Shown here piece by piece: positions 25,990 through 51,890 of a stretch of 52,578 nt of DNA (its first letter is position 1; every line of letters starts with the position of its first letter). The notes beneath the pieces are model-generated. The model was not told where the DNA came from and did not search any database. It was given only the letters and a program-made list of their open reading frames with translations. Source of the stretch: Candidatus Coproplasma stercoravium (GTDB taxonomy: Bacteria > Bacillota > Clostridia > Christensenellales > Borkfalkiaceae). The position numbers were made by a program, and so were the translations under genes. The stretch is from NCBI GenBank assembly GCA_018713165.1, contig DVFR01000048.1, positions 1 through 52,578 of the forward strand. Reading direction: 5' to 3'.

Positions 25990-26745
25990 TTACAGTTTTA
26001 CGCCCTTTATCAGCCCGTCAAAAGGCAACGGAGCGCCTTCCTTTTCAAGCTGCACGACGTATTCAAGATTTTTGCCCTTTATCTCGGGCGCGTTCGTCAG
26101 CGCCACGGGCGCGAGAGAACATTTTACGGCAAAGTCGTAAATCTTTTTTATAATCTGCCTGTGTTTGTCGGCGCCGCGCACGATACCGTTTTTGCCTACC
26201 GACCTGCTCTCGCATTCAAACTGCGGTTTTATGAGCGCAAGCACGCTTTTTGCGTGACATAGTACTTCGCTAACGGCCTCTAATATATATGTGAGCGATA
26301 TAAAGCTGACGTCGATGGTTATCCCGTCGAGCTCCTCCGCAAAAAGGTCTTTGCTTAAGTTTCGGGCATTGAAATTATCGATAACGACTATATTTTTGCC
26401 GAGCAGGCTCTTATCGAGCTGACTTTCGCCGACATCTATGCAATACACTTTCTTTGCCCCCGCCTTTAAAAGGCAGTCGGTGAATCCTCCCGTGCTCGCT
26501 CCGATATCGGCAAAAATCTTACCTTCCGGAGAATACCCGAAATCCGACAGCGCCTTAGCGAGTTTATAGCCACCGGCCGAAACGAACGACTGTCCGCTAT
26601 CCGAAACGGCTATATCGTCATCGGGCTTTACAGTATATGAAGCCGGCTGAACTTTTCCGTTAACCGTAACGCAGCCGCGCTCAATCGCGGCCGCCGCCCT
26701 GCTGCGCGAACCGAATTTTTCTGCAAGAAATTTATCCAGCCTCAT
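25990..26745 (-). CDS. tlyA: TlyA-family rRNA 2'-O-methyltransferase
   Basis: A 251-residue protein with an N-terminal S4 RNA-binding domain (MRLDKFLAEKFGSRSRAA to about residue 60) and a Rossmann methyltransferase. The SAM-binding loop is IFADIGASTGGFTDCLL at about 78-94. KxD-K-type catalytic residues of the RrmJ/TlyA class are visible in KALSDF, TIDVSF and LIKPQFE. TlyA proteins methylate cytidines in 16S and 23S rRNA and have also been called hemolysins. The start overlaps the dxs stop by 4 bp, so the two are coupled. Confidence 0.93.
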   Translation of the reverse strand: MRLDKFLAEKFGSRSRAAAAIERGCVTVNGKVQPASYTVKPDDDIAVSDSGQSFVSAGGYKLAKALSDFGYSPEGKIFADIGASTGGFTDCLLKAGAKKVYCIDVGESQLDKSLLGKNIVVIDNFNARNLSKDLFAEELDGITIDVSFISLTYILEAVSEVLCHAKSVLALIKPQFECESRSVGKNGIVRGADKHRQIIKKIYDFAVKCSLAPVALTNAPEIKGKNLEYVVQLEKEGAPLPFDGLIKGVKL

Positions 26746-28472
26746 TTCAGCCCCGCAACGTATGCGGCAATATCGGCTACATTCAGGCCGTAGTCGTCCA
26801 TAAGTTCGCCGACGCCGCCGTGTTCGATGAATTTATCGCAATAGGCAAAGTTCTTTACGCGCCTGTCGCTGTCGGAAAACCTCACGGCGATGAGCGAACC
26901 GAATCCGCCAGCAAGAACATTGTCCTCAACGGTAACTATGTATTTCTCTTTTAACGAAGCAAGCATCCCGTCGTCGAGAGGTTTAACAAACCTCGCGTTT
27001 ATAATCTTTGCAAAAACGCCGCTCTCCGCTGCGATATCGGCCGCCCGCACGGCGCGTCGGATGGCACGCTCGCCGCAGGCAAGTATTGCAACTTTGTCGT
27101 CGCCTTCGCGCAGAACTTCCCACTTTCCGGCCTCTATTTCGGTCGTTTTTCCGAATGTGTGCACACCGTTGCGGGGATAGCGGATTGCGAGCGGGGAATT
27201 ATATGCGGCGCTGAATTCGAGCATTGCCGCAAATTCATTCTTATCCTTCGGCACCGCTATCGTAAGGTTTGGTATCATCGAAAGGTACGACAGGTCGAAC
27301 ACGCCCTGGTGCGTTTCGCCGTCCGCGCCGGATATTCCCGCGCGGTCGACGCAAAAAGTTACCGGCAGATTCTGCCCGCACACGTCGGTCACTATCTCGT
27401 CGAAGGAACGCTGCAAAAAAGTTGAATATACCGCAAAGTATGGTTTAAAGCCCTGCGTCGCCATTGCCGCGCATAAAACCGCGGCGTGTTCCTCGCAGAT
27501 GCCGACGTCGAACGAGCGTTCGGGATAGCGTGAAAAAAACCCGGAAAGCCCCAGACTTCCCGTCATCGCCGCCGTTACGGCAACTATTTTATCATTATTC
27601 CGGGCAAGTTCGCAAAGTTTTTCCCCGAGAATCTGCGAATATTCGACCGAGGCGGCTATCGGCTTTCTGTCGCCTATGCCGTGGGTGGCTTCGGGATTAT
27701 CCTCGCAGAAACTGTACCCCTTGCCCTTTTTGGTCATAACGTGCATTATGACCGAACCGTGTTTGAGCTTTTCCCTGACGAGTTTAAGTTCATTTATCAT
27801 CTCGTTAACGTCGTTTCCGTTGTAAACGCCGTCGTATTCGAGTCCGAAACGCTCAAAAATGCCCGCCCTGCGATTTTTATGATATCTTTCCTCAACGTCG
27901 TTTTTAAGCGCTTCGAGGTATTCGTGCATGCTCCCGACCGTGGGCGATATAGACATTCCGTTGTCGTTGAGTATAACGAGAATGTTGGTATCGAGCTGTT
28001 TCAGACTGACGAGCGCCTCATAGACGAGCCCGTTATTGAACGAACCGTCGCCGATAACGGCGATTACGTTAAAGTTCCTGCCCGCAAGGTCGCGCGCCTT
28101 GGCTATGCCGAGAGCTGCTGAAATCGACGTGCCCGCATGCCCTGTGTTGTAGCAGTCGTACGCGCTCTCTTCCCTCTTTGGAAAGCCCGAAAGCCCGCCG
28201 CGGCGGCGCAGTGCGGCAAAGCCGCTCTCTCTTCCCGTAAGCATTTTATGCGCGTAACACTGGTGTCCGACGTCGAAAATGAGCTTATCTTCGGGAAAAT
28301 CAAACACATAATGCAGGGCGACGGTGAGCTCCACCATGCCCAGATTGGACGAGAGATGCCCGCCGTTTTCCATTACCGATTTAATTATCTTTTTGCGGAG
28401 CTCTTCGCAAAGTGCTTCAAGCTGTTCGCCGTTCATGGCTTTGAGCTGTGCGCCCGTTATGTTATCGAACAT
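26742..28472 (-). CDS. dxs: 1-deoxy-D-xylulose-5-phosphate synthase
   Basis: Dxs joins pyruvate and glyceraldehyde-3-phosphate to start the MEP isoprenoid pathway; IspH and IspA of the same pathway are also in this window. At 576 residues it is shorter than the usual 610-640. The N-terminal thiamine-diphosphate fold has HQCYAHKMLTGR, HAGTSISAALG, and GDGSFNNGLVYEAL (metal-diphosphate motif). The transketolase-central domain has FDVGICEEHA (catalytic Glu) and RAGISGADGETHQG. AAGGAA precedes ATG. It lies 19 bp after the oapA-like gene. Confidence 0.96.
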   Translation of the reverse strand: MFDNITGAQLKAMNGEQLEALCEELRKKIIKSVMENGGHLSSNLGMVELTVALHYVFDFPEDKLIFDVGHQCYAHKMLTGRESGFAALRRRGGLSGFPKREESAYDCYNTGHAGTSISAALGIAKARDLAGRNFNVIAVIGDGSFNNGLVYEALVSLKQLDTNILVILNDNGMSISPTVGSMHEYLEALKNDVEERYHKNRRAGIFERFGLEYDGVYNGNDVNEMINELKLVREKLKHGSVIMHVMTKKGKGYSFCEDNPEATHGIGDRKPIAASVEYSQILGEKLCELARNNDKIVAVTAAMTGSLGLSGFFSRYPERSFDVGICEEHAAVLCAAMATQGFKPYFAVYSTFLQRSFDEIVTDVCGQNLPVTFCVDRAGISGADGETHQGVFDLSYLSMIPNLTIAVPKDKNEFAAMLEFSAAYNSPLAIRYPRNGVHTFGKTTEIEAGKWEVLREGDDKVAILACGERAIRRAVRAADIAAESGVFAKIINARFVKPLDDGMLASLKEKYIVTVEDNVLAGGFGSLIAVRFSDSDRRVKNFAYCDKFIEHGGVGELMDDYGLNVADIAAYVAGLK

Positions 28473-28491: not shown

Positions 28492-29220
28492 TCACTTTTC
28501 CTTCACGAAGAAGGTTGTAAACCGCGCGAATCCGAACGCAATTTTGCTGTTATATTTTATAGATATAGGTTTGCCGAACGCCTTGCCGCCGACGGTGAGC
28601 GCGCCTATCACCGCGCTTATGAGTATGGAAATAACCATGCCCTCTATCAAATCGTTCACCACAAAGTAGCCCGCAAGCACAGCGCCCGCAGAACCGCTTA
28701 TAATGCCGCATATATCGCCGATTACGTCGGAAAAGATGCTCGCAATCTTTTCGGAGTGTTTGCAAAACGTTACGGCGCGCTTCGCTCCCCTTATCTTTCT
28801 CGACGCCATGGCGTTGAACCCGTCGACGTCGCACGAAACTACGGCGTTGGCTATAATGTCGCAGCCGACGTTTAAAACGAGCAGCACCGCCAGCACTATT
28901 ATACATACGTAAACGGGGCTGTCGTTTACGGCAATTTCGGTGAGAAAGCTGAAAAGTACGCTTAAAAAGAACGAAAGAACGAGGATTGTAAGCCCCCAGC
29001 TAAGCCATACGGGCACTTTCTTTTTCTTCTTTCCCCTGTGTTTTTTTGCGTTTTTGTTTCGGGCTTCTCCCGCCTTATCCTTCGTTTCGCGCGTTTCCAC
29101 CCGATTATCTTCGCCGCCATGCGAAGAATTGCTTCCGCCTGCCGCGCCGCCGTCTTTCACGCTTTGTAAAGGCACAGCTTCGTTTTGGCCCGCCGGGTTG
29201 GCCTCATTACCATTTTTCAT
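28492..29220 (-). CDS. oapA: OapA-like OLE-RNA-associated membrane protein
   Basis: A 242-residue membrane protein. Residues 1-70 are hydrophilic, with a GKKKKK patch at 63-68. Four hydrophobic helices follow (about 71-95, 102-128, 171-189, 191-212). The loop between helices 2 and 3 has RKIR (141-144) and DVIGD (165-169), matching the RxxR and DxxxD motifs I recall for OapA, the dimeric membrane partner of OLE RNA. The gene lies immediately downstream of an OLE-like RNA and upstream of dxs, as in alkaliphilic Bacillus. Automated annotation sometimes labels such proteins as Mg/Co transporters (CorB). The ribosome-binding site is weak (GGAAA). The long basic N-terminus looks unusual. Confidence 0.78.
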   Translation of the reverse strand: MKNGNEANPAGQNEAVPLQSVKDGGAAGGSNSSHGGEDNRVETRETKDKAGEARNKNAKKHRGKKKKKVPVWLSWGLTILVLSFFLSVLFSFLTEIAVNDSPVYVCIIVLAVLLVLNVGCDIIANAVVSCDVDGFNAMASRKIRGAKRAVTFCKHSEKIASIFSDVIGDICGIISGSAGAVLAGYFVVNDLIEGMVISILISAVIGALTVGGKAFGKPISIKYNSKIAFGFARFTTFFVKEK

Positions 29221-29234
29221 ACTATTTTCCGTTT

Positions 29235-29265
29235 AAATAAAATACGCACAAATATCTTGTGCGTA
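29235..29265 (-). terminator. Terminator at end of OLE-like RNA
   Basis: A 9-bp stem (29243-29251 with 29257-29265), 5-nt loop, followed leftward by ATTTTATTT. It ends only about 15 bp before the oapA start, so oapA expression requires readthrough or an internal promoter. Confidence 0.75.
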
Positions 29266-29834
29266 AAAAAGTGAATATAGAGTGGCTTATATTAAATAAA
29301 CTTTGCGGCTTTAGGTTCGGTAGGATTTCCCCCGCGCCCACTTCCCGTCACCGAAGAAGCAGTTTCCTTTTAAGAGCGCAGACGCACAGTCTCCACATGC
29401 GCAACCGAATCGCCACTGAGTCCACACCGTAATCTCTAATACGTTGACAGTCTAGAAGCTTTCCTTGACAGCTGATGCAGGGTTTATCCTCTTTTGCAAA
29501 ACCAATTTCAAACAGCGATAGCGCATCCGGCGTGGCCGCGCCAAAAGCGCTTTGTTCTGTTATCCGCTGATTTCACTCAAGGCAGGCTACTCTGTGCCGA
29601 GCTTGCGCCCGGCGACAGGTGTATCCGCAAAACAAATTGCGGCCTCCGCGGTAAATGGGTTGGCTGTCATATGCCGTTATGCAGTTCCCATAAACCTTTA
29701 CTCCCAGCACCCACCCGCTTTTGGGCAAAGCAAGCAGATACCAGAAACTTCATAGATATGCCCTACGACGGTCTTTTAACCCCGCCTTCACTTCTGCAAC
29801 ACCTGACTAGAATACTGCGCCACTGAATATTACT
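29238..29834 (-). ncRNA. ole: OLE RNA (ornate, large, extremophilic)
   Basis: An approximately 0.6-kb stretch without a credible ORF on either strand. It has its own sigma-A promoter (29841-29869), with initiation predicted near 29834, and ends at a T-tailed hairpin. Near its ends, AGTGGC (29824-29819) pairs with GCCACT (29286-29281), a closing helix. GC-rich blocks inside suggest extensive structure. OLE RNAs are about 600 nt, lie beside isoprenoid genes between ispA and dxs, and are followed by oapA; all of this holds here. OLE binds the membrane through OapA and is linked to stress and Mg2+ responses in Bacillus halodurans. I could not run a covariance model, so identity rests on context, size and partner. 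Confidence 0.8.
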
Positions 29835-29840
29835 ATTAAT

Positions 29841-29869
29841 ATATTAACATACCGCGCAAAAAATGTCAA
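29841..29869 (-). promoter_or_regulatory. Promoter of OLE-like RNA
   Basis: Reading leftward, TTGACA (29864-29869) and TAATAT (29841-29846), 17-bp spacer, beginning 10 bp after the ispA stop. There is no coding start within 600 bp. Confidence 0.85.
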
Positions 29870-29879
29870 ATAAATTTTT

Positions 29880-30758
29880 TTATCCTTCGCGGTAACGCAC
29901 GAACGACACGACGTCCTTGAAAAACCTCGTATCCCCGTCGATTCCTTCGAGCATTTTAAGGCATCTGTCGAACATTATATCGGCATAAACACGGCACTGT
30001 TCGGCGCCGTAGAAAGTGACGTAGGTAAGTTTGTTCTCCTCCTTGTCCTTTCCCGAAGTTTTGCCGAGGTGCTCGAAATTGCCCTCCTCGTCGAGTATGT
30101 CGTCCACGAGCTGGAAGAGCCTGCCGAGGTCCTCGCCGAACTGACGGAGTTCGAGAAAATTTTTGCCCCCCGCGAGTATTGCGGGCACGGCGACGGCGGC
30201 GGAGATGAGTTTACCCGTTTTGTTTGCGACTATAAAGTCGAGCATGTCGCCGTCTTTTATGCCCTTTTCGGCACAATAAAGGTCGGCAGACTGCCCCGCA
30301 ATCATACCCGTTACTCCTGCGCAGCCGCACATGAATTTTGCGGCGTCGGCAAAGAGCTTGCCGTCGGCACAGCGCTCGAACAGAATGTAATACGCCGTAT
30401 TCAGCAACCCGTCGCCCGCAAGGACGGCATTGCCCGCCCCGAACATCTTATGGTTTGAGGGCCTGCCGCGCCTGAAATCGTCGTTGTCCATCTCGGGAAG
30501 GTCGTCGTGAATGAGCGAATACGTGTGTATCAGCTCCAGCGCGAGAGCGTAGTCCTCCACGCCGCAATTCTGCGCGCCGACGAGGTCGGCCGCCGCGAGC
30601 ATGAGAACGGGGCGGACGCGCTTGCCGCCGCTCTTCAAACTATATTTTAAACTATCGTCCAGAATCTGCGGGCGGCAGGTAAGTTCTTCATAAAACCTTT
30701 TCAGCCGTACCTCGAACGCGGAAAGATATTCCCCGTATTTTTCCTTGAATGAATACAA
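29880..30758 (-). CDS. ispA: Polyprenyl (farnesyl/geranyl) diphosphate synthase
   Basis: A 292-residue trans-prenyltransferase that condenses isopentenyl diphosphate with allylic diphosphates. The first aspartate-rich motif is HDDLPEMDNDDFRRGRP (Asp 85, 86 and 91), and the second is LVDDILDEEG near residue 217. GGKRVRP and KTGKLI are also present. Length suits a short-chain IspA-type enzyme. It begins 6 bp after folD. Exonuclease VII genes usually lie between folD and ispA in Bacillota and are missing here. The OLE-RNA promoter starts directly after its stop. Confidence 0.95.
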   Translation of the reverse strand: MYSFKEKYGEYLSAFEVRLKRFYEELTCRPQILDDSLKYSLKSGGKRVRPVLMLAAADLVGAQNCGVEDYALALELIHTYSLIHDDLPEMDNDDFRRGRPSNHKMFGAGNAVLAGDGLLNTAYYILFERCADGKLFADAAKFMCGCAGVTGMIAGQSADLYCAEKGIKDGDMLDFIVANKTGKLISAAVAVPAILAGGKNFLELRQFGEDLGRLFQLVDDILDEEGNFEHLGKTSGKDKEENKLTYVTFYGAEQCRVYADIMFDRCLKMLEGIDGDTRFFKDVVSFVRYREG

Positions 30759-51815: not shown

Positions 51816-51890
51816 AGGGGAGTGGCTCAACGGTAGAGTAGCGGTCTCCAAAACCGTAGGTTGCGTGTTCGAATCGCGTCTCCCCTGCCA
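51816..51890 (+). tRNA. trnW: tRNA-Trp (CCA)
   Basis: Acceptor stem AGGGGAG pairs with CTCCCCT, the D-arm contains GGCTCAACGGTAGAG, and the anticodon loop CTCCAAA has anticodon CCA (51848-51850). The T-arm contains GTTCGAATC and the 3' CCA is encoded. All four arms can be drawn. A strong terminator follows immediately, and a truncated integrase lies 250 bp downstream, which suggests use of the 3' end as an integration site. Confidence 0.97.

Follow-up and report, generated by a model that had tools for sequence, protein, structure and literature searches.

OapA, the membrane protein encoded just behind the OLE RNA gene, appears from its sequences to be self-sufficient and is probably an ion handler, and OLE would be a detachable regulator that docks on a basic segment of 15 residues. 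At least three lineages, including the broad family f6, carry oapA free of OLE; in these the docking segment decays and the DxxGD core stays invariant. This reading is held with moderate confidence. It is developed here from a window of 52,578 nucleotides, contig DVFR01000048.1 of Candidatus Coproplasma stercoravium, that holds both the RNA and the protein gene. OLE is among the largest and least understood structured bacterial RNAs.

The minus-strand feature at 29266-29839 is a full-length OLE RNA gene, an assignment regarded as virtually certain. An earlier note, made from the letters of the window, had called an OLE RNA here and proposed a covariance search of the minus strand; in that search the Rfam model RF01071, whose threshold is 50 bits, scores 414.7 and is covered over positions 1-616 (E 1.7e-118). 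The genome of the window has this one copy and 14 control genomes have none in the same search, which together with the E-value excludes chance. The extent proposed in the note, 29238..29834, was right as to the RNA and is corrected at its boundaries, and the placement between ispA and dxs stands for the ispA side; on the other side it is oapA that adjoins the gap, with dxs after it. The complementary ends (AGTGGC with GCCACT) pointed out in the note are paired in a consensus fold built from 14 Coproplasma OLE sequences, as columns 18-22 with 574-578, and the pair 22-574 is U-A in ten sequences and C-G in four. As the note had also held, no credible ORF is apparent: the listed frames of at least 60 aa inside the RNA are two, both antisense, of 110 and 67 aa. 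A conserved protein frame in place of an RNA is countered by compensatory change, as 59 of 173 predicted pairs are changed on both sides yet kept in at least one of the 14 Coproplasma sequences. The gap could otherwise be taken for an ordinary leader region, a riboswitch or a decayed gene, readings that the full-length match and the compensatory pairs contradict and that are given practically no weight.

The features of the locus are collected in Table 1. The sigma-A promoter described from the letters is recovered as a promoter-like site, TTGACA-17-TAATAT, whose -10 element is preceded by TG; among three promoter-like sites in 801 scanned bases, where shuffles lead one to expect 0.9, it has the most matches. 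The T-tailed hairpin was also correctly seen, immediately after the RNA's 3' end, but is weak evidence by itself because the consensus scan found one such hairpin with 1.1 expected. Elsewhere in the window, a tRNA gene lies at 51816-51887 (+; 63.9 bits).

Table 1. Features of the OLE-oapA locus (window positions; all on the minus strand)
Feature	Positions	Strand	Basis
ispA (polyprenyl synthetase), before RNA	29880..30758	-	PF00348, E 3.4e-49
Promoter-like site, extended -10	29841..29869	-	Consensus scan, 10/12 matches
OLE RNA, RF01071 positions 1-616	29266..29839	-	414.7 bits, compensatory pairs
J4a/5 kink-turn strand, AGUAAAGG	29695..29702	-	cmscan alignment; identical in 14/14 Coproplasma OLE
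J6/7 kink-turn strand, CCGCGGAGG	29643..29651	-	cmscan alignment; GGAG in 13/14 congeners, L029 deviates
Shortened hairpin at the P7 place (name inferred from position)	29622..29643	-	About 20 nt against about 45 in the model
L9.3 loop GGCC	29534..29537	-	GGCC in 14/14 congeners
P13 loop region GGUGAC	29347..29352	-	GG[UC]GAC in 14/14 congeners
T-tailed hairpin behind RNA	29243..29265	-	Consensus scan
oapA, OLE-associated protein A, 242 aa	28492..29220	-	45 nt behind RNA, DxxGD, CNNM/CorC structural matches
Basic segment of OapA (codons 133-147), predicted site of OLE docking	28780..28824	-	Conserved with OLE, decayed in orphans
oapA codons 165-169, DxxGD core motif (DVIGD)	28714..28728	-	D165, G168, D169 invariant
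dxs, after oapA	26742..28472	-	TIGR00204, 614.5 bits

Full-length OLE has been studied in Halalkalibacterium halodurans, and the cryo-EM work concerns the OLE of Clostridium acetobutylicum (PMC12286853). In the same paper and in PMC9723947 the J4a/5 and J6/7 strands have a kink-turn role; the former source describes L9.3 GGCC as the loop through which the OLE dimer makes a symmetric kissing contact, and the P13 GGUGAC loop is given as the OapB site in PMC11332333 and PMC9723947. The window RNA shares with the full-length class the whole model, the oapA gene behind it, both kink-turn strands, the L9.3 loop and the P13 loop. The L9.3 palindrome, the dimer contact, is kept in the window and in all 14 aligned sequences, so far as its letters go, and a dimer here is predicted. 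The window RNA differs from the full-length class in its shortened P7, in the missing hairpin of model positions 424-435 and in belonging to a genus without a detected L7Ae or OapC protein. OLE variant 1, of the TANB77 clade, is described in PMC11332333 as having shorter P7, P8 and P9 and often no P13 OapB site. With this variant the window RNA has in common a short P7, an uncultured host and no detected OapC; it departs from the variant in having an almost complete P8 and P9, in retaining the OapB site of P13 and in a host genome that encodes an OapB homologue. As P7 alone is short and the GGUGAC loop is retained, the window RNA lies between the two classes, a placement judged from features, the published bit-score classes resting on a different model. 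OLE in Coproplasma adds one more member to an established class, and the genome scan behind PMC11332333 may already include it.

The host genome measures 1.70 Mb in 49 contigs and is 94% complete. That it looked like a mesophilic or gut-type clostridial genome, as the note had put it, fits the named relatives: a scan with the window OapA returned ten named loci, three of them from MAGs of Candidatus Coproplasma, a genus of chicken-gut origin, and the other seven under general Clostridia titles only. OapB homologues are found in 54 of 61 genomes, including this one (G000:C13:2904-3077, found with a typed bait), where the candidate matches OapB 7k9b with an E-value of 1.4e-5. The partners OapC and OapB are not universal among OLE hosts (for OapC, PMC11332333). 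The L7Ae family (PF01248, which includes OapC) was detected in 0 of 37 Coproplasma genomes compared to 21 of 24 genomes of the other families of the order, and OapC-type proteins are likewise absent in G041 and G043. The kink-turn strands therefore persist in a genus without a detected L7Ae/OapC protein. Decay of the kink-turn after loss of OapC was considered in view of a genus-wide change of UUAA to UAAA in J4a/5; the change is no mark of OapC loss, because G055, which has an L7Ae protein, carries it too.

The protein encoded behind the RNA has the features expected of OapA: it is small, carries the DxxxD motif and is predicted to form four long helices, at residues 71-98, 103-129, 156-188 and 192-222. 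The model has a mean pLDDT of 76.7 and a pTM of 0.62, with low confidence for most of residues 1-54. DxxGD is invariant in 19 aligned relatives. The best Foldseek matches of the model are 7m1t, 7m1u and 7cff (probability 1.00, 0.99 and 0.91), although with E-values of 0.02 to 1.5, and these place it nearest to the MpfA/CorC/CorB Mg2+ transporters (CNNM, PF01595). CNNM matches at E <= 10 were obtained for 13 of the 19 OapA, the best at 1.4e-8. Unlike those transporters, the window protein has only 242 aa and matches no Pfam family at E <= 0.01; the MpfA architecture, a CNNM domain followed by CBS and CorC_HlyC, was not found in it, its CNNM match reaching only E 2.4. The DxxxD motif of OapA is absent from CNNM domains, according to PMC11332333. 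If the lysine-rich N-terminus lies inside, the segment that links long helices two and three of the model would face the cytoplasm. PMC12265935 locates OapA sites close to P2 and P4a of OLE and mentions a conserved cluster of positive charge, on the cytoplasmic side of OapA, that is thought to bind the RNA.

Among 61 genomes, OLE is present in 37, or 38 counting G015, and within Coproplasma in 21 of 37. Copies that could pass for degenerate or new forms, split in G009, G011, G016, G021 and G033 and partial in G022 and G054, are cut by contig ends, as is the copy of G015; eight contigs (L031-L037, L079) end inside OLE, and presence and absence calls in MAGs therefore need care. At 11 OLE-less Coproplasma loci (L060, L064-L073) oapA is gone as well, and ispA and dxs overlap or lie at most 9 nt apart; in G025 (L071) the two read as a single frame of 846 aa. 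Of the 23 OLE-less genomes, 17 have a strong CNNM match of MpfA type (E < 1e-30), as against 9 of 38 OLE-bearing ones (p 1.7e-4); for Coproplasma alone it is 10 of 16 against 5 of 21 (p 0.023), both p-values ignoring kinship; in the other families the counts are 7/7 and 4/17. MpfA is thus commoner where OLE is missing, with exceptions both ways, a small-scale repeat of the published anticorrelation across the phylum.

Some loci depart from the usual arrangement. The f14 genome G049 has OLE at G049:C57:15822-16443 and oapA at G049:C53:4171-4734, on separate contigs and apparently unlinked, and at L211 (G421) a gene of 504 aa separates OLE from oapA. The best dxs match of G006, G013, G014, G017, G024 and G035 has about 50% identity and does not adjoin oapA where OLE is present; another version of dxs may have served as a replacement in these genomes.

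Of 396 sampled genomes of the order, 236 match the OapA profile and 176 match OLE, with both in 174; OLE without a detected OapA was seen in two genomes (G077, G119). Nine weak OapA matches (E > 1e-11) were discounted as proteins of CNNM type; OapA (E < 1e-40) without any match to OLE is left in 53 genomes, namely 26 of f6, two of f8, 19 of f28 and six single cases. No f6 genome is among the OLE matches of this strict-filter search, whose list shows the matching genomes and leaves 140 without a match unlisted. Thirty-six orphan loci were read, comprising 24 of f6 (L175-L182, L184, L185, L188-L191, L193, L195-L197, L212-L217), two of f8 (L078, L171), two of f24 (L173, L174) and eight of f28 (L183, L186, L187, L192, L194, L198, L218, L219); a further 13 genomes with OapA and no OLE (two f6, 11 f28) are counted by search alone. 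Left out of the orphans were G137 (f14, where OLE and oapA are unlinked in the congener G049), G195 (partial oapA), and G141 and G327 (oapA near a contig end).

At the orphan loci, oapA stands too near the preceding gene to leave room for an OLE RNA. From the end of that gene to the conserved W75 codon, 35 of the 36 loci have 61-344 nt; the last, L187, has 479 nt, with a 79-aa frame in between. OLE-bearing loci have 679-1448 nt here in 37 of the 38 cases that could be measured, the exception being L211, in a set that leaves out five contig-end rows and two others without a measurable upstream gene. Complete OLE copies span 569-636 nt at 30 loci, and the shortest noted in the list of the order has 554 nt. 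With neighbour genes recognised by eye from their translations, oapA lies behind ispA in the f6, f8 and f24 orphans and beside other genes at five f28 loci; four OLE-bearing species of the same f24 genus carry the RNA between ispA and oapA. A DNA profile of 39 distant OLE found none in 37 orphan loci (two of one genome) versus 42 of 42 known OLE loci.

OLE and OapA have been called "almost completely mutually inclusive" and such that they "might never appear independently" in PMC11332333, and PMC9723947 likewise states that OapA occurs only with OLE. In the window the two do occur together; in 53 of the 396 genomes by search, and in 36 at sequence level, OapA stands without OLE, which runs against the mutual inclusiveness stated there. 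No published report of OapA without OLE was found in the open literature searched; older OapA papers may contain one.

The best tree of 81 OapA calls for five losses of OLE, whether the segment is included or left out. One shared origin for the whole set of orphans is rejected (p 2e-9); a single event is allowed for f6 with f8 (p 0.41) and for the two f24 species (p 0.16). As each of these may be one event, at least three losses of OLE are supported. The OapA trees were built with a quick method only, and f6 and f28 have long branches.

The orphan genes are under purifying selection where measured, with dN/dS group medians of 0.08, 0.13, 0.31, 0.10 and 0.23 from 13, 14, 3, 1 and 2 usable pairs, respectively; the median for Coproplasma oapA with OLE is 0.14 (eight pairs). 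Across 120 OapA (45 OLE-bearing, 36 orphan and 39 distant), D165, G168, D169, G176, K213 and K217 are invariant, as is D121 except for one unread residue. Change is localised in residues 133-147. In weighted frequencies, M138 falls from 95% with OLE to 15% in orphans, and a basic residue falls from 96% to 27% at position 141 and from 91% to 38% at position 142. The ratio of divergence in the segment to that in the rest of the protein is 0.72, 0.96 and 0.64 in the OLE-bearing groups compared to 2.91, 5.13, 1.06, 2.58, 2.13 and 2.48 in the orphan groups; the value of just 1.06, from the f6 genus g6, is a counter-case. Among windows of 15 residues the largest drop in similarity falls exactly on 133-147 (2.75), the best window that does not touch it reaching 0.60. 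Decay is partial in f8 and f24, and the protein is little changed in the two young f24 cases. Net charge before TM1, also considered as a mark of RNA loss, lies close to zero with and without OLE.

Both Coproplasma and 39 distant families conserve the segment. Across the phylum, OapA is present in 222 of 299 sampled genomes; of 40 distant loci, chosen at about one for each family, 39 have OLE within the same 3.1-4.3 kb locus as oapA. With a segment profile trained on 39 distant OapA, the 45 OLE-bearing proteins score 11.3 to 38.1 and the 36 orphans -55.3 to 19.0; two f24 orphans (13.4 and 19.0) score above the lowest OLE-bearing protein, L011 (11.3). The AUC of 0.998, against 0.857 for the best non-overlapping window and 0.575 for the median window, is a description and not a test of 81 independent cases, because the rows are related. 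One misfit is L246 (G480:C2:1769800-1774100), where oapA lies before dxs and the segment is intact, with a score of 40; no OLE was found in the 4.3-kb locus or in a further 1.6 Mb of the 3.17-Mb contig. Either OLE lies in the other half of this contig, or it was lost recently, or the rule fails there. The localised decay in orphans beside an invariant core suggests that OLE most likely docks on 133-147 and that the core is RNA-independent.

That the orphans carry an unlinked or very divergent OLE copy, or one lost in assembly, could be suspected from the frequency with which MAG contigs end inside OLE (the eight seen), from the unlinked pair in G049 and from the strict filters of the large runs. 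A repeat with laxer filters in 39 of the 53 orphan genomes (21 f6, two f8 and 16 f28, the f24 species having been searched genome-wide with strict filters only) yielded nothing over threshold and one chance match of 11.7 bits, whereas complete OLE of the order score above 340 bits; moreover, contigs are continuous across ispA-oapA in the loci read and the protein segment itself is decayed, so that a hidden OLE is very improbable. An orphan OapA might instead have gained a new function, which would make its retention uninformative on OapA beside OLE. The long branches of f6 and f28 and the five f28 loci with oapA beside other genes fit such a change, but the core residues stay the same whether or not OLE is present, the f6, f8 and f24 genes still stand behind ispA in the old operon and the two young f24 proteins have hardly altered; a new function is accordingly judged unlikely.

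A less improbable alternative, though still a minority view, is that segment 133-147 serves another partner lost along with OLE, whether a second protein, lipid head groups or OapA assembly, in which case decay would be a sign that the entire particle was lost, rather than pointing to the RNA contact. The higher frequency of MpfA-type proteins in OLE-less genomes shows that other parts of the system shift too, G041 and G043 lack OapC-type proteins as well, and the docking role of the segment is a prediction drawn from alignments. Against this, the segment is conserved in Coproplasma, where no L7Ae/OapC protein was detected, as well as in the 39 distant families, and it is basic, as might be expected in view of the positive cytoplasmic cluster on OapA thought to bind OLE (PMC12265935).

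Under the favoured reading, OLE would be transcribed from its own promoter, fold into its conserved structure and dimerise, presumably in Coproplasma as well. OapA, a membrane protein resembling CNNM/CorC whose gene comes next, would hold the RNA at the membrane, gripping it with the basic segment 133-147 between the second and third long helices. The core (D121, DxxGD at 165-169, K213 and K217) would work free of RNA, probably in divalent-ion handling, and OLE would give OapA an added accessory or regulatory layer, one that lineages may drop. In Coproplasma the particle would have to function without a detected L7Ae-type OapC. The mechanism as a whole, an OLE dimer held by the segment and a core independent of RNA, is judged somewhat probable.

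The Coproplasma case suggests that the OLE kink-turn is kept for RNA architecture and not for OapC alone. If OapA persists without OLE, natural proteins rather than knockouts could separate its RNA-dependent from its RNA-independent functions, and orphan OapA would be a natural test of OLE function by subtraction. The OLE-binding surface of OapA would then be testable with few substitutions, and DxxxD, the site of the published mutant OapA PM1, would probably be an element of the core or ion path and unrelated to the RNA.
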